This document shows, piece by piece, positions 25,952 through 62,225 of a DNA stretch of 64,000 bases (positions within the stretch are counted from its first letter, which is position 1; the number at the start of each line of letters is the position of its first letter). The notes beneath the pieces were generated by a model. It made no database searches. It saw only the letters and a program-made list of their open reading frames with translations, and had not been told where the DNA came from. Origin of the DNA: Psococerastis gibbosa. Taxonomy: Eukaryota; Arthropoda; Insecta; Psocodea; Psocidae. Location: contig OZ020490.1 in the NCBI GenBank assembly GCA_963971405.1, forward strand, positions 31,335,464-31,399,463, in the 5' to 3' direction. Both the position numbers and the translations under genes were made by a program.

Positions 25952-26501
25952 CAAGGCCGTATCCAGAAATTATTTTCGGGACGGGTCCATCTGACGCCAC
26001 TGGAGATGAGTTAAGGCGCCCATTCCACCGACCGGCTAGGGCTATTTACAAAAACGGTGACGTGGTAGCAGACATTCAAGACTTAGGTGGGGTTTCCACC
26101 GACCACGCATTGCAGAATTGACGGAAATGTTTATTTACCTCTATGCCATAGTTAAAATTGATCAATGATCATACAGTAAAATTACAAACCAACATACTAA
26201 AATTAAAAAATGGCGTCATGGGATAAGTTAAGTAAAAACATTTTAATAGATTTCTGTAAAAAGAAAAATTCTAATTTCCGTCAATGTCATTTGCATTGTG
26301 CAATGCGAGGTTGATGGAGACGCCACCTAAGTCTTGAATGTCTGCTACCACGTCACCGTTTTTGTAAATAGCCCTAGCCGGTCGGTGGAATGGGCACCTT
26401 ACCTCAATATATTTAAAACTCAATTCTATCTAGTGTACACTGCAAATATTTCGGGAGGGGTTCTGACCCCCTGCCCCCCCCCCCCCTCTGGCTACGGCTT
26501 T
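25952..26501. mobile_element. hAT-type MITE interrupted by composite MITE A4
   Basis: It begins CAAGGCCGTATCCAG and ends CTCTGGCTACGGCTTTG, with the shared block AATTCTATCTAGTGTACACT at right, so it is a homolog of the intact copy at 13580-13750. The interval 26015-26398 is a separate composite MITE inserted in its interior. Confidence 0.7.
26015..26398. mobile_element. Composite palindromic MITE A4
   Basis: Outer ends GGCGCCCATTCCACCGACCG and complement; inner element 26086-26327 with ends GGTGGGGTTTCCACCGACCA. Flanking trinucleotides are TAA at left and TTA at right, so not a clean duplication. The inner part encodes MASWDKLSKNILIDFCKKK on +. Same composite architecture as A3, A9 and A10. 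Confidence 0.8.
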
Positions 26502-45700: not shown

Positions 45701-45953
45701 CATTAATTATTGAAACAAAAATGACGGATTAATAACAAGTGGAATAGCTGCCTTATCCACACATAAATTATAGGCTAATTATAGCTAATCTACAGTATAC
45801 ATATAAGCGTCATTTAAAAAGTCTTCAAGTCACTTCCTCTAGTACGTTGATAAATTATATAGCCTAAAAAATTATTTCTGTACTTACAAACAGTCTTTTT
45901 TGGGAAGACTTGGTGGGCTGCTTGCTCACGCGAGTTTCCGTTAGAAAAGCCAT
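27711..45953 (-). CDS. KIF19: KIF19, kinesin-8-type motor
   Basis: Thirteen coding exons (minus): 45888-45953, 45272-45340, 40490-40652, 38981-39132, 37971-38120, 37426-37635, 35733-35990, 35154-35342, 32006-32204, 30457-30596, 29536-29749, 28944-29234 and 27711-27874. Phases agree at every junction; the product is 754 aa if it stops at the TGA in the last exon. KIF19 is a plus-end kinesin that depolymerises microtubules and sets cilium length. Seen: N-terminal strand [11 protein letters not shown]-loop [10 protein letters not shown] at 109-118; [20 protein letters not shown]; switch [10 protein letters not shown] at 220-228; switch [12 protein letters not shown] at 259-268; [20 protein letters not shown] at 281-300; and [20 protein letters not shown]. 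Residues about 357-600 are heptad-rich coiled coil ([17 protein letters not shown]), then a serine- and proline-rich tail. Introns carry many MITEs, SINEs and LINE relics. The C-terminal end is the least certain part. Confidence 0.93.
28192..28630 (-). pseudogene. LINE reverse transcriptase thumb fragment
   Basis: On minus the text starts [20 protein letters not shown], the thumb motif of CR1/Jockey-group reverse transcriptases, and continues to [16 protein letters not shown]. About 145 codons, largely open. In KIF19 intron 12 (27875-28943). Confidence 0.7.
29993..30163. mobile_element. Intact copy of the CCGGTATTATAATCGCC MITE
   Basis: A 171-bp element with near-perfect inverted ends (GCAGCCTGATCGAGGCGATT). 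It is the uninterrupted reference for the interrupted copy at 16628-17192. KIF19 intron 10. Confidence 0.85.
31480..31780 (-). pseudogene. Decayed LINE C-terminal fragment
   Basis: Across two frames the minus strand gives [15 protein letters not shown] and, after a shift, a [13 protein letters not shown] piece. This resembles the RLGHS...LLxCP region after the RNase H domain in I/LOA-group LINEs. KIF19 intron 9. Confidence 0.45.
32694..33787 (-). pseudogene. hAT-like transposase C-terminal relic, one frameshift
   Basis: The 272-codon open frame has a segment [20 protein letters not shown] then [13 protein letters not shown], which resembles the hAT dimerisation region (the NADSER/NVERxFS block). 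It then shifts one base near 32985 into a lysine/glutamate-rich tail ([20 protein letters not shown]). The N-terminal part is cut off at about 33850 by a SINE. In KIF19 intron 8, same strand as the gene. It could be a decayed domesticated copy, but nothing shows use. Confidence 0.6.
33852..34000 (-). repeat. SINE1 copy abutting the hAT-like relic
   Basis: Reverse copy of the family body (GGGCTTTATAGCC, GGGCATGTAAAGCAGGTGGT). The tRNA-like head is truncated. KIF19 intron 8. Confidence 0.65.
34440..35115 (+). pseudogene. Two decayed LINE C-terminal tails
   Basis: At 34440-34700 a frame reads [18 protein letters not shown], a diverged form of the WLGHVxRM tail. At 34985-35115 the text [12 protein letters not shown], with frameshift to FRAAVV and [10 protein letters not shown], is the extreme C-terminus of another LINE. 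A relative of the second piece lies reversed at 37725-37905. KIF19 intron 8. Confidence 0.5.
36012..36354. mobile_element. MITE with GCCCCGGTACACAC ends and TTA duplication
   Basis: The left end GCCCCGGTACACAC is inverted at the right end GTGTGTACCAGGC; TTA flanks both sides (36009-36011, 36355-36357). Length 343 bp. A three-base TTA duplication fits PIF/Harbinger. KIF19 intron 6. Confidence 0.6.
36404..36533. mobile_element. Partial hAT-type MITE (homolog of 41640-41835)
   Basis: It shares TTAATTTATTACGCTCTGAT and AAATGGGCTGGATC with the copy at 41640-41835 and ends CTGTCCCTG. Preceded by (TAC)n repeats. No clean duplication seen. KIF19 intron 6. Confidence 0.55.
37018..37425 (-). repeat. 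Tandem 150-bp partial duplications of KIF19 exon 6 and its donor site
   Basis: Units start at 37121, 37271 and 37421 (the last is the true exon end), exactly 150 bp apart, with a fourth partial unit from about 37018. Each unit repeats coding text for KEGKLF(M/I)[10 protein letters not shown] plus the following donor (GTAAGT or GTACGTAAG) and about 25 intron bases. Because 150 is divisible by 3, the frame stays open from the true exon through the first extra unit. Units carry a 10-bp insertion (AATTCCAAAC on +) absent from the real exon. Confidence 0.9.
37725..37905 (-). pseudogene. LINE extreme C-terminus, reversed relative of 34985-35115
   Basis: Minus-strand text [20 protein letters not shown] aligns with [20 protein letters not shown] of the other copy. 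Frameshifts are present. KIF19 intron 5. Confidence 0.5.
38299..38531. mobile_element. Palindromic MITE with TA duplication
   Basis: Ends TGAGTCGTCTAGTATC and its near complement, followed by GCCAATGTAATTTTTGATCA on both arms. TA lies at 38297-38298 and 38532-38533, as in Tc1/mariner-type insertions. Length 233 bp. KIF19 intron 4. Confidence 0.65.
39589..39827 (+). repeat. SINE2 copy with 13-bp target duplication
   Basis: ACCGTAGGTACGT flanks both sides (39576-39588, 39828-39840). The body includes CCCAAGTGGTTCGAAATCCA (box-B-like GGTTCGAAATCC) and ends in a (TAC)n tail. KIF19 intron 3. Confidence 0.88.
40140..40327 (-). pseudogene. LINE C-terminal zinc-knuckle fragment
   Basis: Minus text [20 protein letters not shown] then [14 protein letters not shown] matches the end of the fragment at 26530-27150. 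It abuts MITE A5. KIF19 intron 3. Confidence 0.7.
40329..40459. mobile_element. Palindromic MITE A5
   Basis: Ends GGCGGGGTTTCCATTGACCT and near complement; arm TTGCAGAATGACATCGACGT; centre AGACATTCAAGACTTATTAA (read on -). Left flank TTA, right flank ATA. It ends 31 bp from the 3' border of KIF19 exon 3 (40490), inside intron 3. Confidence 0.75.
40790..40885. repeat. Short tandem duplication (about 60-bp unit)
   Basis: CGTCCGAGTAGTTG with surrounding text (AATTTGTTTT...) occurs twice about 60 bp apart. In KIF19 intron 2, adjacent to a candidate unused exon. Confidence 0.55.
40911..41005 (-). other. Candidate alternative KIF19 exon or decayed coding piece
   Basis: On minus a frame reads [20 protein letters not shown], then EHTLHQ followed directly by GTAAGT, a strong donor. 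It lies in KIF19 intron 2, but exons 2 and 3 already join in frame as [15 protein letters not shown], as in the kinesin fold, so it is not needed. No clear acceptor was identified. Confidence 0.25.
41626..42247. mobile_element. MITE with TTAAGAGTGTACAGCCCGTAGG ends, itself interrupted
   Basis: The right end CCTACGGGCTGTACACTCTTA (42227-42247) mirrors the left end, which is split by the hAT MITE at 41640-41835. Interior blocks GATGCATGAAGTAGTC and AAATTGTAGTTTTTTCATAA are shared with 57833-58178 and a decayed copy at 46850-47160. KIF19 intron 2. Confidence 0.75.
41640..41835. mobile_element. hAT MITE with exact 8-bp duplication GTGTACAG
   Basis: CAAGGACGGATAC starts and GGATCGCCCCTG ends the element. 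GTGTACAG is at 41632-41639 and 41836-41843. Long G and C runs inside form a perfect hairpin (GGACGGATACAGGGG and complement). Confidence 0.85.
43217..43425 (-). repeat. SINE1 copy, nearly full length
   Basis: The body (GTAAGAGAGGGCTTTATAGC, AACTCCGCTAGGTTGG) and tRNA-like head (GTAGAGTAGTGGTACAGACT) are both present on minus; box B is mutated. The (TTTA)n tail is at 43217-43230. KIF19 intron 2. Confidence 0.75.
43752..44000 (-). pseudogene. LINE C-terminal tail (RTE-like)
   Basis: Minus text [20 protein letters not shown] then [20 protein letters not shown] is a well-known tail of RTE-like LINE ORF proteins, here open for about 75 codons. KIF19 intron 2. Confidence 0.78.
44396..44616 (+). 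repeat. SINE1 copy, best preserved
   Basis: Box-A-like GGCGTAGTGGTACAG and box B GGTTCGAGTCCC are followed by the family body and a (TTTA)n tail. It is the clearest evidence that the family is tRNA-derived. KIF19 intron 2. Confidence 0.82.
45616..45752. mobile_element. Palindromic MITE A6
   Basis: GGCGGCTATTCCACTTGTCA and near complement; the arms share TCATTTGTGCAT with A1 and A13 but lack their GGAGACTATTATGTAG module. Right flank TTA, left flank TAC. KIF19 intron 1, 136 bp from exon 1. Confidence 0.7.
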
Positions 45954-46178: not shown

Positions 46179-46315
46179 GGCGGCGTTTCCACCGACCTCG
46201 TTTGTGAAAGCTACCGTGATATTGACGTGGTGGCAGACATTAAAGACAGTCTAATGTCTGCTAATACGTCAATATCACGGTAGCTTTCACAAACGAGGTT
46301 GTTGGAAACGCCGCC
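46179..46315. mobile_element. Palindromic MITE A7, flanked by TAA
   Basis: Arms GGCGGCGTTTCCACCGACCT, then TGTGAAAGCTACCGTGATAT, then TGACGTGGTGGCAGACATTA. TAA flanks both sides (46176-46178, 46316-46318). Same ends and core as A2 and A15 but a different arm. About 220 bp upstream of the KIF19 start codon. Confidence 0.82.
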
Positions 46316-46510
46316 TAAGCAAGGGAACGAAAAAATAATGACAATGCAACGATTTGAAAGAGCTACCTTCCGGGCGAGTGTCAGAGACTATACCACTAGG
46401 CTATAAATTGACCTTGAATTAAATACGTGGCAAAACTGTGTTGATATTCACACACACTTCGTAACAAACAATAAATGTTTTGATGAAACCTTTTATGTAC
46501 AGTTGCGTTA

Positions 46511-46653
46511 GGCGGGTATTCCATATACGTACAACGTCAATGAAAATTATGAAATTGAAGGTGGTAGCAGAATTTTTAGTATGTCTTTAATGTCTGCTAC
46601 CACCTTCAATTTCATAATTTTCATTGACGTTGTACGTATGTGGAATGGGCACC
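46511..46653. mobile_element. Palindromic MITE A8, flanked by TTA
   Basis: Ends GGCGGGTATTCC; arm ACGTACAACGTCAATGAAAA; core AAGGTGGTAGCAGA. TTA at 46508-46510 and 46654-46656. The arms are almost perfectly complementary. Confidence 0.82.
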
Positions 46654-47644
46654 TTAGTAAAACCATTTTTTATGAATTCTTCATCTGGTTACTTTAGTAT
46701 CTCTGTGGAACGAGAAACTAATTAATTTCGTCAAAAGTACACACAATCATTCCTCGTCAACAAAAAAATTTTGAAATTCTGCTGTATCATTTGTTTACAA
46801 AATATTTGGAAAGTTACTTTAGAAAATTAGCACCCCAACATTTGTTGATTTTCTTGACTTTTTATTTTTATTTAATTAACAAAGCAAGTCATTAAAGATT
46901 TGGCTCGAGCAAGTTGTAGAAGACTACTTCATTCATCATATAATAGGATATATTAAATTTTTGGTACCTTAGTTCTTTCACAAAAGCCATTGGGGACTAA
47001 ATTTTTTATTATTATTATTCTTTAAATTTTGGAAAAACTACGAACCAGGAAAGTAAAAATACTCGATGCCAATTTTTTTTTTTTGTAACTTGCTGAGTTA
47101 ATGAAATAAAGAATAAAAAGTATTTAATTTTGGGGGGGGCGGCAATTTCCTCTTAAGTTTTTAACGTTTATTTTAAGTATAAAGGTCATACAGTAAGGTT
47201 TATAATTTATTATTTGCTCACTCAAATGAAATGCCACAAAGGCACGAGTAACTTAATCTACTGTATAAACACTAACCGTCGCAAAACGTTTCAAAAAGAC
47301 TATTAGGTTTTTAGTACAGTCAGTTCGTTTGATGTCGAGTACCGTGGATACAACGACCGCACTGAAGCGTAGCCCACCAACTGAGATTGTGGTTTGGAGG
47401 GGTGGCATGTGTGCCCTTTCTTCACACCGCCCAGCCAACAATCAATACGCCACCCCCACAAGAGAATTTAGTTTATCGCCTACACTGCAGGACAGACACG
47501 CGAGAAACGTTAGCTTAATGTGTAGACACCGCCCCAAACTTATAACTTTAGATAATTGAAGGATTGGTTTACACGTTGAAATTGTTTATTATGTGACCAT
47601 GAATCAGAAAAAAGAAGCGGCACGAGTGAAGCGGTCCTAGCTTT

Positions 47645-48046
47645 GGCACATATTCCACCGACCGGCTAGGGCTAAATACAAAAACGGTGACGTGGTAGCA
47701 GACATTCAAGACTTAGGCGGGGTTTCCACCAACCTCACATTGCAGAATGCAATTGACATTGACGGAAATGTTTGTTTTACTCTATGCCATAGGCCCTAGT
47801 TAAAATTTATCAATGATCATAGAGTAAAATCACAAACAAACAAAGTAAAATTAAAAAAATGGCGTCATGGGATATGTTAATTACAAACATTTTTATAGAT
47901 TTCTATACAAAGAAAAACAAACATTTCCATCAATGTCATTTGCATTCTGCAATGCGAGGTCGGTGGAACCCCGCCTAAGTCTTGAATGTCTGCTACCACG
48001 TCACCGTATTTGTATTCAGCCCTAGCCGGTAGGTGGAATATGCGCC
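47645..48046. mobile_element. Composite palindromic MITE A9
   Basis: Outer arms with GGCTAGGGCTAAATACAAAA and inner element 47716-47975 (GGCGGGGTTTCCACCAACCT). The inner part encodes MASWDMLITNIFIDFYTKKN on +. Flanks TTT and TTA. Confidence 0.82.
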
Positions 48047-49134
48047 TTACCAATTAATCTAATAGTAGAGGTGCCGTAATAGATAGAATAGTTCCACGGT
48101 AGCTGTATAATTCTACTAGTGTTCAATTTCGGCTCTTTTTCCCTATCCTAAAGCATTGGATTGATCGATGAGACATTTGCATTGGGGTATGCCTTGCTTA
48201 TAGTTTATTCAAAAAATATTTTTGCCTTCAAAAAGAAGGAGCTGTTCAGTTTTGTTACTCTACTTAGCACCTAGACTATACCTTTAGGTTCCACAGAAAA
48301 AATATTTTTTCGTAATCATTCATGAAAATTGAGCATACTATAATATTATTATTTTGGCCCTGAAGCAAACTCTTAAGGGGGAAGAGACCTAGTTCTAGAC
48401 TATGCAATCGTACCATCGATCATTTCAGTGCTTTGGGATAGGGAATGGCTAAAAAAGGAGACCAATGCTACTTTAACCATTATGAAATATTATGCATACC
48501 TCTGATCAAATATGACGGACTAATGTACGCCATGTAGAAGAGTGTAGCAATTCAATAACCACTGTGGACGGGGAAATTAAAAAAAATTATAAAATATAAG
48601 ATTTTGTATTAGGTATTTACTTGTGATTTTGAAATAAAAATCATGAATAGTCAAATTTGACTTCACCGCTATTGAATTAGCTGTGAAGCCATTCATTGAA
48701 CTTGGAAGTAAACCTTCACCTTTAAACTTGGCAGTGGTGTACACAAAAGGCTCTTTACTGGCAACATTAGCGGTGGTTGCCTCTACATCAATTATTTATT
48801 GATTTATAACCAGGCTAATTTGATTAATATATCAAGGTCACCCATGTCTGTTGCCATAATAAATTGGTACAATGTCAAAGTCAATAACTTTCACGCATTA
48901 GTCAATTAATTATAGACAGATCGTTCTACAAAGACGTAGCTATACAATAGAAAACTTGTTAGATTCAAACCATTTAGGGTCAGTAGCCCACAGACTTTCT
49001 AATCCAATGCAGCAGTAAGATATCTAAAATATTACCAAATCAATTTTTTAGCGGACAAAAAGAGTTTATACAAGAAAACAAACTCTACCCAAAATTAATC
49101 AGATATGTATTACCATTTCCTTTTAACTTGGTAA

Positions 49135-49510
49135 GGTGCCCATTCCATTGACCGGCTAGGGCTATTTCCAACAACGGTGACGTGGTAGCAGACATTCAAG
49201 ACTTAGGTGGCGTTTCCAACGACCTCGCATTGCAGAATTGACGGAAATATTTATTTTCCAATAGTTAAAATTGATCAATGATCATACAGTAAAATCACAA
49301 ACAAAAAAATTAAAATTAAAAAATGGCGTCATGGGATGTGTTAAGTACAAACATTTTAATAGATTTCTATAAAAAGAAAATTCTAATTTCGGTCAATGTC
49401 ATTTGCATTCTGCAATGCGAGATCGGTGGAAACGCCACCTAAGTCTTGAATGTCTGCTACCACGTCACAGTTGTTGGAAATAGCCCTAGCCGGTCAATGG
49501 AATGGGCGCC
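49135..49510. mobile_element. Composite palindromic MITE A10
   Basis: Outer arms with GGCTAGGGCTATTTCCAACA; inner element 49206-49439. The inner part encodes [19 protein letters not shown] on +. Flanks TAA and TTA. Confidence 0.82.
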
Positions 49511-49732
49511 TTAATAAGTAGACCTAGTAGAGGAATTCACTGTGTTTGGTTTACCCTAAGTAGGAAACTGAGGGAACATAGAAAAATAGAACTGAATTGA
49601 CACTGAAAAATAATGCGATAAGGAAGCGTATTTCCCAACATTCCCATTTTACCCAACCCGAATGTTGGGGAACTGCACTTGGGGAATCGTAAACGGCCAT
49701 ATTTGTTATTGTTTAGCTTTTATATTTTACTT

Positions 49733-49738
49733 TTTATT
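49733..49738 (-). terminator. Candidate ELP6 polyadenylation signal
   Basis: AATAAA on minus, about 330 bp past the ELP6 stop. If used, the 3' UTR contains most of the SINE at 49885-50046. Confidence 0.45.
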
Positions 49739-49884
49739 TTGTTTCATTTTAAAAATGGGGGAAGATAAAAAAATTATAAAATCATACCTAAAAAGTAAAT
49801 TCGTGTCGGGGTGGTACTACCCGTGGTACAGGAGTTTTCAGGTTGCATCAACAGCCTCCTGTTTAACCTATCGACAGTCAGGGA

Positions 49885-50046
49885 AGACTGCCGGGACCGC
49901 CGGCTTTACATGCCCTCCGAAGCATGGTAGTCAGAAGATAAATAATTGTACCACTAGAAAATTTTGGCATTCGGGTGGGACTCGAACCAGTCACCTTCTG
50001 GATGATAGTCCGAGTCGTTACCTCTACGCCATTCTGACTATTCATA
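49885..50046 (-). repeat. tRNA-derived SINE in the ELP6 3' UTR
   Basis: On minus: box A ATGGCGTAGAGGTAACGACT, box B GGTTCGAGTCCCACC, then GCTTCGGAGGGCATGTAAAG and GGCGGTCCCGG. The head differs from SINE1, but the body core is shared, so this is a second subfamily. It begins 22 bp after the ELP6 stop codon. Confidence 0.75.
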
Positions 50047-50067
50047 ATCATACCTGAACGCACTGTA

Positions 50068-53000
50068 TTACCGGATTTGCACAAAACCAGGGGCAAACAG
50101 CCGCACCCTTTTATCGAGCAATTGAAAATGATAACAATTTTCACTATCCCACGATTCATTTACATTTTTGCGTAAAACCACCAGCATTCCATGGATATCT
50201 GACGCTGATCCTGTATTAAGTCCTTTAACCTGAAAGTAGAAGAAAAAATCCTTTTAGAGCTAATTTATAATAACACCTGATCAGACAAGAAGGACGCCTG
50301 TGCACCATAACAGCAGGCACAATCGAGGGCACCAATACAAGAGGGAGACCAAGGAAGGCGTACGCAAGAGACCTCAAGAAAGATTTGAGATGCGGAACCT
50401 ACTTGGAACTAAAGAGAACGGCCCAAGAAAGGGAGGAGTGGAGAAGGAGGTGGAAAGATTTGCTGCAAACCAATCGTTAGATTGAAACCAAACAAGAAGA
50501 CAGTAACACATGAATCCGGTGTGTCACGAAATAAAGAACCGGTATGAGCGAACATTGCGTTCTATTTATCAATTAGTGTAGGTACCGATACACTGTTTTG
50601 TTCTACGCTAAAAACCCTCAATTAGCGAACGGTTTCGGTTAAAATATCATCAACAGATTCAATACGCTTGAGATTTCTAGTTAACGGTAGATTATAGTTA
50701 GACTAGGGTTCTTACCTGTATAGAAATATTGGCATGGTAGTGTAGTGAATTCGTAAATGCACATAAATCTTGGCTATCTGGCAACTGTTTAGTAAGGCAC
50801 AATAATCCCACGTTTTCCGTTACCAAACTACGCATGTAGAGTCCAAACATCATCACAGAAGGCACGTTTTCCCCTAAAAAAAATTAATCTTAATTTACGT
50901 AGAGGTAAAAGGGGACATTTTTTTTAAAATCAAATCGAAAACCTCATAAAATATCGACCCTAGAGATAAATCAATGAGGCGCCGTAAAGTAGAAGAACTT
51001 TCTAAGACAGATGTAGCCGTCTCTTTCTAAGACGATTGACCACAATTATCGAATTAGATTTGTAAAAAAAACTATTGGCGTGGTAGTCCCGAGGAAGGAG
51101 TTTAAGAACTTTGACCAATTAGTGCTAGTGAAAGCCACTTGTCATCCATATGTACATACAGTAATCAGTATAAGAGTATTTCTTCTAATTTAACGAATAT
51201 TTTTGACGGCTCTAAGGTCGATTATTTCCAGTTAAAATCGACTTCGTACAAAAAACGCGTAGTGGGGTACTCTGATTTGCTTTTTAGGGCATAACACCAC
51301 ATTTTCGCGATGATTATTGTTGATTACTGAAAGCTAAAATAAAATTGCTTCAGCATTTTAAAACTTAACTATAACAGTGAAGTATTGACCAAAAGGCATC
51401 TTGTGAAAAATAATTATAATAGATCTAGGTACCTGCTATTATTATGTCGGTAGGGTGTTCCAAAACGACTGTTACATTGTCCTCCTTTCTAAATCTTTCG
51501 ACTGCGTTCTTTGCGTTCAAGAAAATATTTTGTAATTTGGAACAATTATCTTGGAGATGAGCTTTACTTCCAAATGGATTCTCACAGAGCTATAAAAAAA
51601 ACATAAATATTGAACTAACAGTTGGTAAAAAAGAGTCGGATGAAAAAAATGAAAAGTGGAAAGGAAACGTCTCGTTGGCAAGACAATTTATATTTAAAGC
51701 AAGGATTGTAGAGTAGTGGTAGTCAGGACATGTAGAGTAGTGGTATGGACTCCGACTTTCGCCGGAAATGTTGTTGGTTCGAGTCCTACATTTTCTGGCC
51801 ATGATTCGGAGGGCATGCAAAGCCCTAACTCCGCTAGGTTGGCTTAGTAATAGAACAAAAAGTCCTTATTTATTTATTTAACTGAATTCGCTTGGCATGT
51901 TCCATCCATGAAAATCTCACAAACAATAACTGCTAGACCTGCCAATGCAAAAATGCAACATAAAATCGGCTTTAAATAAATAAACTTATGTTTCGCCGAC
52001 ACTTATTTCTTTAAAAAATGCATTTTTCTTAAGGTAAATAAACGATAAATAACCATGTATTTGTTACTTTATAATATGTAGTAGTAGTAGTGTTCGTCGG
52101 GTTAACAACGACTTAGGCCTCATATTGGGGCCCATAGAGCGACCCCGACTTGGCTGTCCTATGCCAGCCCATAGGACAGTGGACCTCCTGATTATGGTGG
52201 ATTCCGAACCACTTGGGAAACACAGTGAAGTCACACGATTAGTTCGGAGGTGACCCCAGGACAAGTCCTACCATGTTTCCCTACCGGCACTGTACACACG
52301 ACCAAGTTATCTGCAGCTTTGAACCTGCTGTGGTCCGCTGGATTTACTTTATAATGGGGAGGTTAACTTCACCTTTACCCAATAATTTAATATAAAAAAT
52401 ACCCGGGAGTCTATTTGCCTAAAGGTTTCGAGTTTTAAACAAAAACAGGTTCACTTTAGTTCCTCTAGCAAAACCCATTTCTGAAAGAATTTAAGGTTGG
52501 CCTAGTCTATAGGCGGCTAAAATGTTGCGTTATTTGGTGTTAATTGCTACAAGTTAAGGTCAGATGCCGTAATACGATTTATGATTTACGCGGAAAGAAA
52601 ATGGTAAGTAGTCTAAACGCCTCGCAAGAATTAGGTGAATCTTTTAGGGGCTTACTTTATATGAGGCTAATATAAGCCTAAGCGTATAGGCTAACTGCAG
52701 TCAAACTCATTTTGAGACAAACGCACTTGACCTTTTTCATTCAGATTCAGATTTTTCAAATGCATTTTATTGAGGAACTGAGCACGATACAGTTATACTG
52801 ATTGGACTCTAAAATAGATGAGTGCTACAGGAAGACCATGGTGCAGTTATCTCAAAATTTTAAAAAAATTGCAGTTATACGCTTTGGTTTCTATACGCCT
52901 CAATAATGCTTGCTTACTGCATGATGTTGAGCAGGATTTATAAAAATGTATTTAGGTGAAGGTCAAGTCAAGCTACTCCGCGGTACAAAAAGTGGGGTTC

Positions 53001-53913
53001 TCTTAAGCTTAAAGGATGCATTTACCAAATTTTGTTATTTTATTAGTGGTAGCTAGTTGTTGTTGTTGACAGTAGCATGTAATGCTAATGATTGCCAATA
53101 ATCGATCTATCACGGTATAGTTGATTTAGTGGTGCCACAAAGAGCCGTGCAATGAACTATTCCGCAAAATTTTCATCAAAGCCCTCCTGAAGCCGTCCAA
53201 CTTGTCGAATCTCTTGATTTCAGCCGGGAGTTTATTATAAGGACTAATTCCAAGGTCAAACACGGAATTTTTATGTTCTGAAATAAAGTTATCAGCATTC
53301 CTGGTGTCATAACTATGAACATCTTTAATTTTTTTTTTTTTTATTCAAATATGCCGGAGAAGATTCTTTCTTATATATAAAAGTCATAACATCCAGAAAT
53401 TCTTGGTCTTCAAAATTTAACCACTCTAGTTCTTGCAGCATCCTATCCTTAGAGGTGTCCCACGGTAGGTTTAAGATGCACCTCATACATTTATTTTTAA
53501 TGACTTGCATTTTTTCAAGGGCCTCCTTACTAGAACCTGAACAAGGTACTGCAATAACAGAAGTGAGGTCGAATTACAGAGTGATAAACCATTTTTTTCT
53601 GTTTCACTGGAACTTGACATTTACAGATTTACCATTATTTCTTACTTACTGCTGAAAGTCCATTTATAACATGCACTTTTCCTTGCTGCTTGTAATTTTC
53701 TAAATTGTATCCTAATTTGACTCCAACTCCGTGATAGTGACCAAATGTATGATGAAACAACACCAGTACGATCCGTTCACTGCGTTTTACGCAAGCTTCC
53801 AAAATACTCGATATTACAAAGCCTCCATCTATGCATTTATGCTCTTCTACAACTACTAAATGTTTGGCTGGCAGGGAATTCAGATTTAAAATGCTTTCAA
53901 TTGATAAATCCAT
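50068..53913 (-). CDS. ELP6: ELP6, Elongator complex subunit
   Basis: Four coding exons on minus: 53650-53913, 51433-51589, 50716-50873 and 50068-50229. Phases 0, 1 and 0 agree at the junctions, giving 246 aa (human ELP6 has 266). ELP6 forms a ring with ELP4 and ELP5 in Elongator, which modifies wobble uridines of tRNAs; these subunits have a RecA-like fold without ATPase motifs. Matches to the family: early segment SERIVLVLFHHTFGHYHGVG (human has a CFVALIQSFSHYSIVGQKLG-like stretch), GKVHVINGL, the central strand DNVTVVLEHPTDIIIAG, and the C-terminal YHFQLLDKRVRLFAPGF. No Walker A motif is seen, as expected. A SINE starts 22 bp past the stop, and a LINE tail lies in intron 3. Start codon: first Met of the open exon, MDLSIESILNLN. 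Confidence 0.88.
50300..50490 (+). pseudogene. LINE C-terminal tail
   Basis: The text GTNTRGRPRKAYARDLKKDL then [15 protein letters not shown] is a LINE ORF end, followed by a stop. Related to 10490-10645. In ELP6 intron 3, antisense. Confidence 0.7.
50930..51290. repeat. Long imperfect palindrome (GTACCCC repeat family)
   Basis: The right end (GCAAATCAGAGTACCCCACT read on -) and the blocks TTTGACGGCTCTAAGGTCGA and GTAGTCCCGAGGAAGGAG recur at many places in the window, as half or whole copies (229-945, 3805-4170, 4488-4540, 13290-13520, 21100-21330, 22275-22350, 24238-24420, 44050-44245, 57243-57330, 58700-58900). ELP6 intron 2. Confidence 0.6.
51715..51885 (+). repeat. SINE1 copy
   Basis: GTAGAGTAGTGGTATGGACT head, box B GGTTCGAGTCCTAC and a shortened body, ending in a (TTTA)n tail. 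ELP6 intron 1. Confidence 0.75.
52076..52343 (-). repeat. SINE2 copy with 12-bp target duplication
   Basis: TTACTTTATAAT flanks both sides (52064-52075 and 52344-52355). The tail is (ACT)n on minus. ELP6 intron 1. Confidence 0.85.
53110..53510 (-). pseudogene. LINE reverse transcriptase thumb and C-terminus
   Basis: Minus text: NKCMRCILNLPWDTSKDRML, YDTRNADNFISEHKNSVFDL, LGISPYNKLPAEIKRFD and LRNSSLHGSLWHH followed by a stop. This is the C-terminal end of a CR1/Jockey-group LINE with one frameshift in a poly-T run at about 53335. ELP6 intron 1. Confidence 0.75.
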
Positions 53914-54419
53914 CGATAAAAATTATAATTGACCTGAAGGCTGAAAGACAAGTATTGAATATTGATAAATGTTACTAATAAACAAATATGGCGAAGGGAC
54001 CCCATTTTCCTTTATTCTTTCTTGCGACAATTGTCTAATTGCGACAAATTTAAACAACAGTTTTGGTGGGAAGTTTGTTTACTCTCAGTGCCAAGCTATC
54101 AAGGGGGAGCGACCAAAGAACTTCTAATATAATATAGCGAAGCGACTTATACACTGTATTTGCATAATGCATTGGCACGACAGCCTAATATGAGGACTGG
54201 TGGGGGATCCCCTCTGCCTTAGATAAATAAGTAACCTCTACTCTGATTCGGATATTGAATCAGTTAAATCAGTTATATTCGTGCCATTTTCAAGCTAGCT
54301 AGGGCTAGCTTCTGGGCGTCATCATCAAATTCTGTCGTCTAAAACAAATAATATAAATAAATAACACAATCACAGTAATATCGGGTTCGTCAAAAATTCC
54401 CTAACCGAGTAGGGAACTT

Positions 54420-54970
54420 GTTCCAGCAGTAGCCGTCGGCCGGCCCTGGAAAAACCTTTACCTCATCCTGTGTCCTTATATCCCGGGGTAGCTTGTCAAA
54501 CAACCGGATACCCATCTCCCCAGGATACCTAAGGGTAGCCGTGAGACGACTGCTCTCCCGTAGGAAACAGTCCCTATTTCTGGTCCCATAAGTGTGGGTG
54601 TTACCTAATCTCGGGGGCGGGTTTTCCGCAAGTGCACTAATGTCTCCAAGATATAGAGCGGGTAGAGTTAGTATACCAAATTCCTTAAATAAGGGCCGGC
54701 AAGATACTCTATGGTCTTTGATACCCGCAATGGTTCTAATTGCCCTCTTTTGTAAGCGGAAAACCCGGAGGGAGTCAGTAGAGTTACCCCAACAGATAAT
54801 GCCATATCGGATGTGACTTTCAAACAGACCAAAGTACGCAAGCCTTGTGGCAACATGTCCGTCAGCTGCGTTGTCCCCCTACCGATGAAGGTAAGGTATC
54901 CATTAGGGTAGACATTGTCCAGACCCACGGAAAAATTCTTTTTATTTCGCGGCTCGAACCTCAACCATTC
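54420..54970 (-). pseudogene. LINE reverse transcriptase thumb fragment, frameshifted
   Basis: Minus text across frames: LFESHIRYGIICWGNSTDSL, LQKRAIRTIAGIKD, HTYGTRNRDCFLRESSRL and MGIRLFDKLPRDIR, a typical thumb of CR1/Jockey-group LINEs. At least one frameshift near 54820. Confidence 0.78.
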
Positions 54971-55122
54971 GTTCCATAGCCTAGTTCTCTACCAACTGTC
55001 TATTCCAGCCTCTACAAACAACGTCGTGGCACAACCCAAAGAAATGATTATGATCTAGGCCTGCAGATCACTGCTCAATCCTTGTGAGAGTTTCCTTGGT
55101 GACTTCGTGGAACTTGGAGAAC

Positions 55123-55553
55123 ATCATGAGTAGAGGAAGAACGCAACGATCCCACAGTAAAATACTTTAATAGTGACCGGTTTCGGTAAAAATGACTGTA
55201 CCTCAGCTTTTGCGGACCACCTCTCAAGTAACTCCCACTCATGTAATTTTGAAGATTTTAAAATTCTACATTGTTGTAATAAAGGTAGACTATTAGACAG
55301 GTTAGAAAGCTTAGAGATTAGAAAGGCTATTAGGAATAACGAGGTTCTCACGAACGATATAATGTTTCAAACTGTATCCCCACTACTCGATTTATGTACT
55401 CAACCCTCGCCTCCACCTCCCACTCCCATCCCGTATTTTATAAGCTGGCGTTTTTTCATGTGTTGTTAGTCTGATGATGGATTTTATCCGAAACCGGTCA
55501 CTATTAAAGTATTTAACTGTGGATTATTGTGTTCTTCTTCCTCTACTCATGAT
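55123..55553 (+). mobile_element. Penelope-like element remnant with inverted ends
   Basis: Inverted ends of about 65 bp (ATCATGAGTAGAGGAAGAAC and complement) include ACCGGTTTCGGT and CCGAAACCGGTCACTATTAA. Inside, a + frame reads CTSAFADHLSSNSHSCNFED then LLDRLESLEIRKAIRN, resembling the end of the GIY-YIG endonuclease region of Penelope-like elements. A hammerhead-ribozyme-like core lies in the right end. Confidence 0.6.
55471..55499 (+). ncRNA. Hammerhead-ribozyme-like core
   Basis: CTGATGA (55471-55477), a short hairpin GGAT-TTT-ATCC, GAAAC (55490-55494) and GTC (55497-55499) follow the order of a hammerhead core, with stem III very short as in the minimal motifs known from Penelope-like elements. 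Confidence 0.5.
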
Positions 55554-55990
55554 CACTGCTCAACTTGGGATGTCGCGTTTCCCCCTAATATAACAAACTC
55601 AATTAGTTTCCGTTTTGCCGTTGATAACACGTGCATCGCTGTACTTACTTTTTCTTAGCTTTTATCCCTAAGAGGGGTCACCGATACGGCATGTTCTCTT
55701 CCACTCCTTGCGATTCTGCGGTCCGACTGCAGTTGCTCCTACAATTTCTGAGGTCTACCGTCAGCCAGGGCCGTCTTCGTCTTTTTCCCTCAGCAGTTAG
55801 CGGTCTTCATTTCAGCTCTTATTTCATCGTTCCGGCGCCTATCAGCTGATGTGAAGCCCAGGGACACGGACATGGAACACGCTCAACGCTGCGACAGCAA
55901 AAATAGCCCAGAATGTTTACGAGCTTATATTGTAATAATGCAGCACGTCTTGTTTCAGAGTGCAAATGACAAGTAGCCCATATCCTCTTA

Positions 55991-56130
55991 GGCGGGGATT
56001 CCACCAACGTCAATAGTGATAGTAAATGTAGTTTTGACGTAGTAGCAGACATTTTTAGCATGTCTTTAATGTCTGCTACCACGTCAAAACTACATTTACT
56101 ATCACTATTGACGTTGGTGGAGTCCCCGCC
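55991..56130. mobile_element. Palindromic MITE A11, flanked by TTA
   Basis: Ends GGCGGGGATTCCACC; arm AACGTCAATAGTGATAGTAA; then TAGTTTTGACGTAGTAGCAG. TTA at 55988-55990 and 56131-56133. The arms are almost perfect complements. Confidence 0.82.
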
Positions 56131-56918
56131 TTAGGCCGTTCCCATCAACTTCCAAATGACTAGCTTGCCAACTTCAATATGGTTCAAACTTTTGGAAAGG
56201 TTAACTGGTTCATTTGCTTACTGGAAATAGAGGACACGCTAGGATCCAAAGATTTATCGTTTATTTATAAATTAAATAAAACTTCCGATTTTGAACCTAC
56301 TGAAAAACGCGGGGAAAGCACTTATGACGTCTCGCGTGCATAAATTCCTCAGCCCCTATGTGAAGGAAAGTTTTCTAGAAGCTGGTGTTTTCCATTAATT
56401 CAGAACAATTTTCCTTCAAATAACCAACGGCTATAACTACCATTCCTTCGGTCTGAACCCATTACTGATCACAGGCTAACAACGGTTTTTATTACTGCTT
56501 ACATTCCCCCCAAAAGTCTCTGTCATTGGCTCGCCAAATGTATAACCATAAAAGGAATAAAATCATAATACGTGCGTTTCGATTAATACAAATTCAATTT
56601 ACTTTCAATAGATAAAAGTAACAAAACCTTCTTAGGGTAGCTCCGACCATGCTGGGTGCAATAAATTGCCGGTGTCATATTGATATTCTCATCACTGATG
56701 GTTAGCTACGGAAATGGGAATCCGAATAAAGACGTTAGATTTGTCCTTATTCGGTTTTCCGTGCTCATTTGAGGATATTCATGAAACAATCGGAGGGAGA
56801 AAGTATTATAAAGTGTACAAATCAATCTCATAAAGTACGGTATCAATCGTAGCCCGTAAAAACATAAGGACAAACTGAAAAATTCATGTGAGCATTTTAA
56901 TACATGATATTCTTCTTA

Positions 56919-57236
56919 GGCGGGGTTTCCACCGACCTCTAATTGCAGAATGCAAATGACATTGACGGAAATTTGAATTTTTCTTTTTATAGAAATCTAT
57001 TAAAATGTTTGTACTTAACATATCCCATGACGCCATTTTTTAATTTTAGTTTGTTTGTTTGTGATTTTACTGTATGATCATTGATCAATTTTAACTATGG
57101 CATAGAGAGAAAAAAACATTTCCGTCAATGTCATTTGCATTCTGCAATGCTGTGGAATACCCGCCTAAGTCTTGAATGTCTGCTACCACGCCAATGTCTT
57201 TGCTTTCTGCAATGAGAGGCCGGTGGAAACCCCGCC
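56919..57236. mobile_element. Asymmetric composite MITE A12, flanked by TTA
   Basis: The left end is the inner-type end; the right side continues past the inner end (57165) through AAGTCTTGAATGTCTGCTAC to a further outer end (57236). TTA is at 56916-56918 and 57237-57239. Encodes [20 protein letters not shown] on minus. Confidence 0.82.
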
Positions 57237-57339
57237 TTACTATACTATCGCAGATTTGCCACAATTATTGAATACCATTTGTAAAAAAAAAAAAAATTGT
57301 GTGGTAGTCCCGAGGAAGGAGTTCAAAAACTGTGGCCAA

Positions 57340-57380
<41 letters not shown>

Positions 57381-57832
57381 GTCGGCGATGGGGAGCCATT
57401 CATCCACTAAACTACTAAAACTAACCAATAGCTGTTAATGAAGGCCACACGTCATATGTTGAAATGCAGAGTTCCAGCTAAAAATATCATACATCAAAAT
57501 GCCCATAAAAAAATTTCTTTTGCTGGTCCTGATATTTTTTGGCCGCTTGATTTATATTTAAAGAGAAATTTGATTGTTCTCCTACGATTGCCTAAGTATT
57601 TTAATTATTTACAGTACATACCTACTGTATGTGTTAATTTACTTGTGTTTACATATGGTACAAAATGCATTGACAATGTAGATATTTGACAAAGTTGTAT
57701 ATAACCTTTTCATAAGCAGGCGGCCAGCCGCGCTGCGCAGACATAAAACAACCATAGGATAAACTTGTCATTCCATGTTTACATTGGGCAGTGTTTCAAT
57801 CTTATAAGCATTGTGAAACTTCTCTCTTAAGA

Positions 57833-58178
57833 GTGTACAGCCCGTAGGAAATTGGCAACCCGAAATTTATTCCTTTTTAATTTTTATTTAATTAACTAAG
57901 CATGTTATTAAAGATTTGGCTCATCAAAGTTGTAGAAGACTACTTCATGCATCATATTGTAAGATATTTTTAATTTTCGAAATTGTAGTTTTTTCATAAA
58001 CATGCAGATATTTTATAAACAATAACTTTTCACGTAAAAGCAATTTTATAAAAAAACTACAATTTCGAAAACTAAATAACCTTATTATATGATGCATGAA
58101 GTAGTCTTCTACAACTTTAATAACATGCTTAGTTAATTAAATAAAAAGTAATAAATTTCGGGTTGCCAATTTCCTACG
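57833..58178. mobile_element. Second copy of the GTGTACAGCCCGTAGG MITE, right end missing
   Basis: It begins TTAAGAGTGTACAGCCCGTA and shares its interior with 41849-42247. It is cut at CCTAC, where MITE A13 begins. Confidence 0.7.
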
Positions 58179-58443
58179 GGCGGTTATTTCACTTGTCATT
58201 TTTTCTTCAGTTGTGCATTAAAAATTGATGAGATTTTTGTTTTGAGGAGACTATTATGTAGATACTTAACTTATCTATTATAAATTAAGTTATGCTATGC
58301 TAGAGACATCAATAATAAGTCTCTACCATATTATAACTTAATTTATAATAGATAAGTTAAGTATCTACATAATAGTCTCCTTAAAACAAAAATTTCATCA
58401 ATGTACAAATTATGAAGAAAAAATGACAAGTGGAATAACCACC
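58179..58443. mobile_element. Palindromic MITE A13
   Basis: Relative of A1, with GGAGACTATTATGTAGATAC modules in both arms. Right flank TAA, left flank ACG, so the duplication is lost. Confidence 0.72.
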
Positions 58444-59897
58444 TAATAAGAGACTGCGTTCTACGTAAATAAACAAAATGCAAGCTTTTCTTATGTTTCT
58501 TTTATGTTAGGGCCGGGCGGTAAGCCGCCTGTTATGGAAGGGCCTATAGGAATGCACTTTACCAACGATGGTTGGATCCACCCTTCGAATACATTTTCAC
58601 TAATTATCTTATTGCCTTTATGCACGGAGTTGCAGACAATTTGTGTTAAAACAATATCTCTTCGTCGCTGTTACAGCTAAGAGTCAATTGGACCCACTGT
58701 CCGTTTTTTGAACAAAATCAAAATTCGCAGGACAAACCGATCGTGGAGCTAATGAAAAATTTAACTTCCGTTCGAAAGAATGTTCCTGCCCATTTTGATG
58801 CAGAAAAGTGGCCGTTACTAACATCAATCGGTCACAGTTTTTCGAGTATTCAGAAATATTTTACAAATCAAATTCATCAACTGATTGGTGCTAAAACTAC
58901 GCTGGGTTGACAGGTATACGCGAACGGTAATTGTGGTGTATTGCTTAACCTTATTAACAGGGTTATATATACTGTATGTGTCATTCGTAAAACCAAATCA
59001 GTTTAAAATACAGAAAATAGCTTCAAATGAAATGGTACTATTTTTTAAAATTTGGTAATGAGTGAAGATTTTTATTTTCTAACACTTCTACTTTCCTCTT
59101 CAATGATACTTCTTTATCTTTGCCAACATTCAGTCGTTGTAATATTTTAAATATTACGGCCGGCGCCAAATATTTTATTGCACGTGATTGCATGAAAAGC
59201 AATTTTTAATGGTTAAAATTTTTTAAATGTATCGAAAAACACTCAAAAAAGTAACTAAATGTAACAAAATTTTAAAGAAGCAACCAAAAAGTTACCTACA
59301 CAGAAAAATGTAACCAATAGTTGAAAAAGTGGAGGCCCTGCCGGGCTTATATTTTACCTTCAGTGACGGCCACAAGTCCACATACTCTACATAAAAATAC
59401 AGAGAAACATGTCTTGTAATGGACGTGGTATTTTATATAGCTCTACGATCAATATTTGTTGTGAATTATGAATTTTCACACCCCTCCGATTGTATAAGCA
59501 AAGTAGGGCAGTACATATTTAACACATCCACATCATCTTGGCACTACATTCCGCGAAGAACCTTGGCCACTGCAATAACATTCTCACGCCTATAGTGATA
59601 ATTAATTATAAAATACAATTGGACCTAGGTGGTATGCATACAAAGAAGCAAAACCTTTTCACATCACAAATTTGGAGCAAATGCTTCAAAAAGGTTTTGC
59701 TTCGAGGAGTTGGTGAACATTAATTCGGCTTAGGTTCAAGAGGCAACCACCTCAGAAAATTATATCCAAAAAAGAAGTCAAGAAAAATCTGGACAACGCG
59801 GGACTCATGATCTATGCCTTTCTTTCCGGGTAACAATATTCTATATAAGTGTTTCCCAACCCCAGGGAGTCGGCAGATTATCATTGGAATACAAAAT

Positions 59898-60279
59898 GTT
59901 GTTGTTTCCAACACCTGCTTTCAGCATTTCTGCTTTTAAGCAACCCTGTCAGCCTGGCGGAGGGAGTGAGTCTGTTCATTAACTTGAGGCACCCTAAAGG
60001 CAGACTCTTTCACCTCGGGGGAAGGGGAGTTGACTGACAGGGTGGGCCTCCTGATTATAGTGGATTCCGAACCCCTTGGGGAACATAGTAAAGTCACACT
60101 ATTAAATCGGAGGTGACCAGGACTCGACACGCACGTAGACTGACTGGTATATACAACCTAACCTCGTATAGTCTCAGCGCGTAATCATCTCCCACCATGT
60201 TCCCCTGCCAACACTATGCACACTACCAAGTTTGCTGCAGTTCCAAACATGCTCTTCAACATGGTAAGGCCGTTGGCAG
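59898..60279 (-). repeat. SINE2 copy with 12-bp target duplication
   Basis: GGAATACAAAAT at 59886-59897 and 60280-60291. The tail on minus is (CAA)n. Closest in sequence to the copy in METTL3 intron 3. Confidence 0.87.
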
Positions 60280-60798
60280 GGAATACAAAATAAGATGTAT
60301 TTGGTACAGTCACTCTGGTCTTTGCAGCTTTCTGAGTGCTTCAGCTTTATTTTGTCTAGCATACCCATTCGAAACTAGTTTTTTTAAATGTAAATAAATA
60401 TTATATTCATTCATATTTAAAATGTAGTATTTTCTGCGTTATTAGGCGCTTCAAATATGTAGGCTATGATGCGGATCGCGTTTTTAAATTCTTGGATCCT
60501 GGATTTTTTTTGTTGGGAACCCCTATACAGATTTTTCTTGATTCCTTAATGTTGTGAGGCTCTGCCCTTCAACCTAAATCAATAGATAGTTAAAAATGTA
60601 TAACCCTTCATTCCATTTGGTAACTCGCAGGCCTGCTTAGATAGTTGTGCAGCTGTGCTTAATCTGCAGAACAATATAAATATTATCAATGAGCATCATA
60701 GAGGGAATCACGTCAAGCCTGGGTGAGGCGGACTATTGGTGTATATGGTAACATGATACGGTCATTGGCCATAGCTTGTCGAAACACAATGCTTCTTA

Positions 60799-61082
60799 GG
60801 CGGCTATTCCACCGACCATTTGCCTCACTTGTGAAAGTGCTTGTGAAACAGTGAATTTTGTCATTGACGTTTGTTTTGTTTTAAGGAGACTATTATGTAG
60901 ATACTTAACTTAATTATTATAAATTAAGTTTTAATATAGTAGCAGACATCATTAATAATATTATAACTTAGATAAGTTAAGTATCTATATAATAGTCTCA
61001 AACAAAACAAACGTCAATGACAAAATTCACTGCTTCACAAGCACTTTCACAAGTGAGGCAAATGGTCGGTGGAGTAGCCGCC
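60799..61082. mobile_element. Hybrid palindromic MITE A14, flanked by TTA
   Basis: Outer end GGCGGCTATTCCACCGACCA; arm TGCCTCACTTGTGAAAGTGC and TGTCATTGACGTTTGTTTTG; then the AAGGAGACTATTATGTAGAT module of A1/A13; then a remnant AGTAGCAGACATCATTAATA of the other core. TTA at 60796-60798 and 61083-61085. Confidence 0.82.
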
Positions 61083-62085
61083 TTATCGGTAATCTGACAA
61101 CACTGTGTATCCAATATTTGCTATGTTCAGTGACCTCAATGGCCGTGTACATGATGGATATTGCCACTAACCTATCAGACTTGTCTAACTTGCTGGTCTG
61201 ATCGAATTTGGTAATTATGTGAGGCGGTCATTGAGTTGCTTCGCTATGGTTGGAAGATCCAACCGATAGCAAAGTAAACAACTTAATATAAGGACTTGGT
61301 TGAGCATACCTCAACTATGAAAGTGCATATTAAACAAAGAAAAGAAAAATAATAATAATAATAATAATAATGAATGTCGTAGAAATGCTCTGTAGGGGCA
61401 AAATGGACCAATAAAGCTTAGTGCTTACCATATGCCATACATATGTACCCCAATTAAGAAAAACGAACGGAAAGGCAGCATGGTAGATTTTTTTTGGATT
61501 CCTTATATTCAGATTTAAGAGTAAAAGGTGGTTTTGAACTTAAGGAAGAGAAGAAATGGTTCAGGTTAGCATCATGCCCGTATCTTTTTATTCAACATTT
61601 TGTTCATGAAGCAAATACCTCTATGAATTTTACTGTCAAAGAAAACGACCCAGCAATTAAGTAATGCTGAAAAAAAAGTGCAGCACTTACCAAAATCCTT
61701 CTCCTACAAGTTGGAGACCATTTCCATAGCACATTATATCAATAAATAACAAAAAGAAAAAAACATCCTGACGTTTTTTTTGTTTAAAAACAAACATTGC
61801 CCTTTTCAGAAATACACAACGCCAAGCCATTATATTTAGAATTTAAAAACTCACATAAAACACCGTTAATGTTTAAAGTACTTTAGAATTTTGATTAAAA
61901 CTGTTTTCATTAAGGTTTAACTATGAACAACGCTACAGTTCTGCAGCCTAACGTTAACCTCCGTCAATAAACCTGTTTATAGAAGATGAACACATTTATG
62001 CAGGACCTATCCCTCTAACGCCATTTTGTTATTTACAAATGGAAATACCGATAGCTGGGCTGTCAGCAAGATAGTCGATTACTAA

Positions 62086-62225
62086 GGTGGCGTTTCCATT
62101 GACCTCATTTTGCAGAATGCACATGACGTTGACGTGGTAGCAGACATTAAAGACTTATTAATGATGTCTGCTAACACGTCAACGTCATGTGCATTCTGCA
62201 AAACGAGGTCAATGGAAACGCCGCC
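62086..62225. mobile_element. Palindromic MITE A15, flanked by TAA
   Basis: Ends GGTGGCGTTTCCATTGACCT and near complement; arm TTGCAGAATGCACATGACGT; centre GTAGCAGACATTAAAGACTT and full complement. TAA at 62083-62085 and 62226-62228. Best example of the family core. Confidence 0.85.

Follow-up and report, generated by a model that had tools for sequence, protein, structure and literature searches.

Exchange of arms and cores, with possible mirror doubling, among palindromic MITEs of the Psococerastis gibbosa genome

The window analysed here, a stretch of 64,000 nucleotides from the insect Psococerastis gibbosa (contig OZ020490.1, positions 31,335,464 to 31,399,463), carries at least 15 palindromic miniature inverted-repeat transposable elements (MITEs) that were delineated by self-comparison and have ends of the form GGYGNNN(A/T)TTCCA, or near that (Table 1). 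From the outside inwards each element consists of a flank (often TTA or TAA), a 13-bp end in which positions 5-7 are variable, an arm and a core, and these parts combine in ways that point to their exchange between lineages, possibly accompanied by mirror-image doubling of element halves. A sequence-only reading had already reported palindromes in this window, and they were found where it had put them; two of the copies it named, A2 and A5, lie outside the interval (46179..62225) to which the observation was assigned. The common end that it described as GGCGG...TTCCA is real, but the consensus is wider, and the two ends of A8 begin with GGCGGGT and GGTGCCC, respectively.

The length of the arm between end and core is 36-39 nt in 163 of 187 halves (before removal of false ends), and the arm classes are designated here by the letters a to j, names coined in this analysis. 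Core S is a hairpin of the form TGGTAGCAGACATT-loop-AATGTCTGCTACCA; the interior that constitutes core L is longer and has the inverted repeat TTTTACTCTATG...CATAGAGTAAAA and a start-codon remnant, MASWDMLST...LIDFYKKK; and core 3 carries GAGACTATTATGTAGATAC. Most elements measure 118-467 bp, those with core L being mostly 234-467 bp, and the longer rows that were listed represent pairings across arrays or composites.

Table 1. Palindromic elements and composites of the window (positions counted from the first nucleotide of the stretch)
Feature	Position	Strand	Arm	Core	Flanks	Remarks
A2	12327-12456	.	a	S, short	TTA/TTA	loop AAAGACTTATTAATGATG
A5	40329-40459	.	a	S		loop GACATTCAAGACTTATTAATGATATC
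A7	46179-46315	.	c	S	TAA/TAA
A8	46511-46653	.	d	S	TTA/TTA	143 bp; ends GGCGGGT / GGTGCCC
A11	55991-56130	.	e	S	TTA/TTA
A15	62086-62225	.	a	S	TAA/TAA	loop AAAGACTTATTAATGATG
Symmetric A-A composite	16765-17157	.	b	S		nested a-L at 16836-17086 splits the core at the loop
Symmetric A-A composite	26015-26398	.	b			nested a-L at 26086-26327
Symmetric A-A composite	47645-48046	.	b			nested a-L; right half-loop read by eye, not by script
Symmetric A-A composite	49135-49510	.	b			nested a-L at 49206-49439
Partial composite	56919-57236	.			TTA/TTA	left outer arm and half-core absent; bounded by the inner end on the left and the outer end on the right
Palindrome	60799-61082	.	g	3	TTA/TTA	GTAGCAGACATC close to centre
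Palindrome	7026-7292	.	f	3		core with GAGACTATTATGTAGATAC
Palindrome	58179-58443	.	f	3
Palindrome	45616-45752	.	f	another short core

The shared hairpin core noted in the sequence-only reading is well borne out, as GTAGCAGACATT occurs 25 times in the window with up to two mismatches, compared with 5.5 occurrences expected, and none of 100 shuffles reached 25. In the 409-Mb genome, the 16-mer GGTGGTAGCAGACATT has 598 occurrences as opposed to 3 for its reversed control, and at least 2,292 palindromes with an exact core (451 + 1,841) are present; these and the other genome-wide pattern counts are exact matches and thus lower bounds. When stretches were chosen irrespective of elements (the window and 18 evenly spaced 10-kb stretches, 244 kb in total), 46 element rows were obtained, a list that takes in nested elements and a few false pairings. 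The local sample of about 360 kb includes 52 genome pieces beyond the window, 34 of which were selected (32 for the core and two for transposase genes), so that local counts of core S and of arm d are inflated; in addition, copies are related by descent, and p-values computed over them are rough. As in other MITEs, the elements are short and non-coding, have inverted arms (on average 0.90 identical) and are present in the above copy number. Two clusters of d-type S-core MITEs, each of about 800 bp and with partly adjacent members, were seen at C1:47040583-47041331 (L114, 4583-5331) and C1:22437527-22438302 (L115, 4527-5302).

Cores S and L, despite being unrelated, occur behind the same arms. 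Exact junctions in the genome, counted on both strands with 19 nt of arm per pattern, number 465 for e-S and 221 for e-L. For arm d, 451 exact d-S-d palindromes and 1,639 exact d-L junctions (both strands) were counted, although the respective patterns reach just 7 and 10 nt into the arm from the core, a stretch that relatives of d could have in common. The reversed-pattern controls of the junction counts were zero. In the local sample, full d arms adjoin S in 31 and L in 4 cases, arm e in 6 and 1, and arm a in 3 and 21, with 3 further nested forms, of which some are pairings across neighbours. The arms of d-S and d-L elements are 0.97-1.00 identical, whereas their interiors are unalignable; the arms of e-S and e-L are 0.94 identical, and those of a-S and a-L 0.75-0.81. 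Between classes, d-S and e-S elements combine 0.53 identity of arms with 0.85 identity of cores, and d-L and e-L elements combine the same arm identity (0.53) with 0.68-0.71 in the interiors. In all three classes (d, e and a) the arm/core junction lies at the same motif, TTGACG or TTGAAGG, which forms the last bases of the arm.

As one arm is found many times over with each of two unrelated interiors, a pattern that an exchange-free tree cannot produce, parts are exchanged between elements. This conflict between modules is directly observed, and the shuffling anticipated earlier was recovered, in large exact numbers for d and e and in the local sample only for arm a. The same observation bears on the possibility that these are ordinary separate families, descended from several autonomous parents that would each have had their own arms, ends and core, with the shared core being ancestral. 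The coding remnant in core L is of the kind expected of deletion derivatives of coding parents, and the arms form homologous chains, as described below; however, one arm on two unrelated interiors in such numbers is impossible without exchange, which makes a history of separate families improbable.

To relate the arms to each other, those adjoining S or L (classes f and g not included) were clustered at 85%, and the 22 resulting representatives were compared after trimming of shared edges. At z of at least 4, 10 of them group together (d, e and h with their relatives), as do 8 others (a, b and j with theirs), which leaves four singles, namely the c arm of A7, an arm of locus L083, an arm of class i and a short arm. 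Of 231 shuffled pairs none attained a z of 4, and a single pair attained 3.5. Raising the threshold to z 5 separates the d group from the e group again; at z 3, 21 of the 22 arms join, yet two null pairs also reach this value and the result was not relied on. The arms of A8 (d) and A11 (e) are connected via intermediates that are directly visible, whereas the arm of A7 (c) is unconnected, and a chain leading from a through j to b can be traced by eye (CACATACGTTGACG, CACATACGGTGACG, CAAATACGGTGACG). Most arms thus belong to homologous chains whose length stays close to 36 nt, and mutation accounts for much of the arm diversity. The proposal that arms of different copies are unrelated holds for A7 but not for A8 and A11 or for most other arms, and the associated argument that mutation cannot explain them is not upheld.

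Within a copy the two arms are similar, with a mean identity of 0.90 and a median of 0.94 over 106 elements, compared with a mean of 0.61 between copies (5,565 pairs), a difference that the earlier reading had suggested checking. The partner arm is the best or tied match among the arms of all copies in only 47 of the 106 elements, because many copies share one family. Classes could be assigned to 104 of the 106 elements, leaving 2 without one, and in 103 of the 104 the left and right arms agree in class. The arms had been called nearly perfect complements, and end-plus-arm identities of 0.90-0.98 in A7, A8, A11 and A15 agree with this, while A2 (0.86) and A5 (0.82) are less regular.

Continuous gene conversion from arm to arm at the insertion site, through extrusion of a cruciform or hairpin, could keep copies symmetric and would account for the excess of identity within copies over that between copies. 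The private changes argue otherwise, since those confined to one arm, which can be seen directly, number 9 in d (32 copies), 18 in b (19 copies) and 23 in a-L elements (24 copies), whereas none of the private changes in these families affects both arms (50 versus 0 in total). Similarly, among 24 d-S copies 17 changes are found on one arm, one is identical on both arms and one differs between them. Family e, with 10 one-arm and 5 both-arm private changes, agrees better with conversion. Mutual correction of the arms after insertion would often have placed private changes on both arms; in d, b and a-L such copying, to which the proposal of the sequence-only reading might be taken to extend, is not seen. 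On balance, a continuous conversion that keeps every copy symmetric is very improbable. These change counts, and those given below, include the segmental duplicates L069/L070 and L090/L095.

Changes shared between copies present a different picture in family b, in which 46 affect both arms (none of them private) and 25 affect one arm. Family b thus inherits new symmetric variants, and asymmetric variants multiply as well. A partial step is visible in the d arms, where GGCGGGT replaces GGCGCCC on neither arm in 24 copies, on one arm in 5 and on both arms in 3. Hybrids of very different arms are rare, with two exact d-S-TTGACG cases against the 451 + 1,841 symmetric palindromes. In d-S copies, the C/T difference between the two ends is present in both orientations relative to the loop. 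Decay of CpG was considered as the origin of the GGTGCCC ends and rejected, as the opposite product GGCACCC is absent from the element listing (GGCACAT occurs once).

A nested family provides a further view of symmetry. The loop of A5 contains the exact halves that flank a nested MITE in the composites: half A, its left half (CAAGACTTA), and half B, its right half (ATATCATTAATAA, read inwards). In the composites an a-L element has inserted at the TTA of the A/B loop. An asymmetric A-B composite was read whole at L105 (719-1256), where the nested element holds one more insertion; it is not one of the 26 candidate composites listed by script, the element list having no entry for its outer pair. 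In contrast to this asymmetric form, the b-armed composites, which include four of the window, show half A on both sides, and all 17 candidates in which both halves are readable are A-A when single changes are allowed (a count for the local sample); the window copy at 47645-48046 is A-A in addition to these. Across the genome, 243 exact A-B and 77 exact B-B composites were counted from patterns that record the length between the halves but not the bases between them. One nested family therefore exists in an asymmetric form and in both mirror-symmetric forms, and this coexistence, which is itself directly observed, is consistent with a doubling of halves at inverted repeats. Most simply, A-B would be the original form, and each of its halves would later have been doubled as a mirror image, with the central inverted repeats as the pivot. 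Four empty loops of A/B type were found in the sample, that of A5 being exact and the other three having small differences. Independent insertions as the source of the A-A and B-B composites were considered and set aside, there being no empty A-A or B-B loop in this small sample. The partial composite at 56919-57236 either transposed as a single unit or was trimmed later.

These observations may be explained jointly by mutation and by an exchange of parts that proceeds via interior replacement and mirror half-doubling, an explanation that we place slightly on the probable side. The elements would be non-autonomous palindromic DNA transposons with common short ends, mobilised by some transposase, and their lineages would diverge through mutation and exchange parts through recombination. 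In one type of event, the interior between the inverted arms would be replaced, with junctions at TTGACG or TTGAAGG, so that the same arms come to enclose core S in some elements and core L in others. In a second type, one half (end, arm and half-core) would be copied as a mirror image over the other, whether by a template switch, by hairpin-primed synthesis or by inverted-repeat recombination near the centre. Symmetric and asymmetric products would both be able to multiply, and later mutations would strike single arms. From the products we infer that A-B came first, and likewise by which enzymatic route and at what stage halves were doubled and in which direction each core was exchanged. Interior replacement and mirror doubling are known results of gap repair, template switching and ectopic inverted-repeat recombination.

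Interior replacement may instead have acted alone, with gap repair after excision or breakage copying the interior of another member via TTGACG while the arms stayed in place and no mirror copying occurred. The near-identical arms and unalignable interiors of d-S and d-L, and the junctions at one motif in d, e and a, are as this predicts, and a parallel exists in the Drosophila transposon Galileo, for which the available part of PMC3573991 describes copies whose two terminal inverted repeats (TIRs) are of one subfamily while the interior is of a different one. The suggestion in the sequence-only reading that an arm is replaced and then copied to the other side is similarly affected, since d and e are more simply explained by interior replacement, while the nested family in its A-B, A-A and B-B forms agrees with copying. 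Interior replacement alone, which leaves unexplained both the occurrence of A-A and B-B beside A-B and the both-arm inherited changes of family b, is considered rather unlikely.

Several observations weigh against a general role of mirror doubling. No full-length parent was found among the elements read. A-B composites outnumber B-B composites, the latter are known from pattern counts with none read at full length, and no empty A-A or B-B loop was present among the four empty loops of the sample, although such loops could exist outside it. The both-arm private changes of family e (5 copies, small and diverse) have been mentioned. Shared changes are mostly one-armed in a-L (55 one-arm, 11 both-arm) and d (28 and 10), as interior replacement would also lead one to expect, and therefore asymmetric lineages multiply too. 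Moreover, of 36 elements with GG(C/T)GC-type ends, 26 differ in the third base between their two ends, compared with 17.9 expected (binomial p 0.005, the copies being non-independent). Such mixed ends are common to d-S and d-L and are also found in b (e.g., window 26015-26398 and 49135-49510), and they speak against doubling at every founding because doubling erases the difference that interior replacement keeps.

A broader proposal, that half-doubling diversifies palindromic MITEs, is put forward tentatively and falls somewhat short of being probable. One asymmetric parent would give rise to A-A and B-B, with inverted repeats as pivots for template switching, and the products would found lineages; if so, symmetry would be largely a by-product of founder formation and not of correction or selection in each copy. 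Overall, the observation made in the sequence-only reading is confirmed, and its interpretation is partly supported.

The flanks of 85 outer elements were compared. Identical TTA or TAA is found on both sides of 29, the target-site duplication expected of MITEs, whereas 12 have TAA/TTA and two have TTA/TAA; the remaining 42 carry other sequences, which are identical on both sides in 8. Among the 43 copies with TTA or TAA (TWA) flanks, 29 thus have an identical 3-bp duplication and 14 do not. A TWA duplication explains the 29, and a TA duplication with an optional extra A or T fits all 43. The TWA flanks recall the PIF/Harbinger superfamily, while a plain TA duplication fits as well.

DDE_Tnp_4 and MADF domains, which are typical of Harbinger elements, are present in the genome, the former in at least 150 places. 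An autonomous Harbinger element with the ends described here was not found at the two DDE_Tnp_4 loci that were read out of those places, and at the locus of the second group no such ends lie within 3.7 kb. The 16-mer and a DDE domain repeatedly lie about 3,033 bp apart, which had raised the possibility that the core is the end of an autonomous Harbinger element, but one such locus, when read, proved to be a complete MITE inside a large repeat. This repeat is present at L090 together with L116 (C1:11895351-11903300) and at L095, is 99.9% identical over 3 kb (L090 versus L095) and carries an S-core MITE as a passenger; its open frames are one of 384 aa with DDE_Tnp_4 and one of 191 aa that may be akin to YqaJ-type exonucleases. 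At C3:6743195-6747295 a pair of e-L arms lies in facing orientation at a distance of 4.1 kb, with no hit among the DDE_Tnp_4 and MADF matches listed; the pair could be an element, which would be in keeping with separate parental families, or a chance pair of solo arms.

Other features of the window include a separate palindromic repeat family at 57837-58184 and 41849-42241, with ends near CAGCCCGTAGGAAATTGGCA that are unlike the GGYG ends, one copy of which adjoins the MITE at 58179. Frames on the minus strand at 38972-39529 and 3048-3773 match the motor domain of kinesins and a BAG domain, respectively, and are likely exons of host genes; together with the size of the genome they mark the DNA as eukaryotic. 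A 150-bp unit is repeated in tandem (3.3 copies) at 37020-37517. A scan of IMG/VR with a 15-mer returned 65 stretches, which were taken as chance matches of a short pattern.

Tourist-like MITEs derived from PIF/Harbinger are small and non-coding and have inverted repeats and TTA/TAA flanks. The present elements resemble them in all these respects but differ in that 14 of the 43 TWA-flanked copies are without a matching 3-bp duplication. No named system of this kind was known to the sequence-only reading, yet Galileo and the CMITEs of Acropora corals, as far as the available parts of PMC3573991, PMC4168063 and PMC2872659 describe them, show much of it and are close precedents. Galileo (P superfamily, foldback-like, from Drosophila mojavensis and D. 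willistoni) likewise has subfamilies that differ in TIR sequence, and in addition to the copies of mixed origin mentioned above, hybrids with TIRs of two subfamilies are described in the relevant passages (PMC3573991); for D. willistoni, insertions that arose secondarily in one TIR are described as having become part of both at a later stage (PMC4168063, passages available). The TIRs of Galileo measure hundreds of bases or more and its duplications 7-8 bp, as opposed to the short elements and TWA flanks described here. Mirror products of one loop, counted in the present study, do not figure in those passages of the two papers.

The CMITEs, which are piggyBac-like, combine different TIRs with a shared and more conserved interior, form tandem arrays, which the d-type clusters at L114 and L115 resemble, and include a new element that arose through nested insertion (PMC2872659, in the part available). 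They are about 100 bp long with TIRs of 13-14 bp and TTAA duplications, and that part of the paper describes neither palindromic arms nor two unrelated interiors behind the same arms, both of which are present in this genome. The TTAA duplication and CC(C/T)T ends of CMITEs were not found in the present elements, whose flanks are mostly TTA or TAA and whose ends are GGYG. No report of both mirror forms of one loop was found in the literature searched, which reached few subscription journals. What the present elements add to these precedents is that the variable modules are palindromic arms, that the same arms enclose either of two unrelated interiors at scale, and that one loop exists in both of its mirror forms. 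These forms bear on the symmetry of MITEs and on the origin of new MITE families, and as the empty loop, the asymmetric form and the mirror forms coexist in one genome, the latter two in tens to hundreds of copies, the rates and direction of symmetrisation and of core exchange are measurable here.

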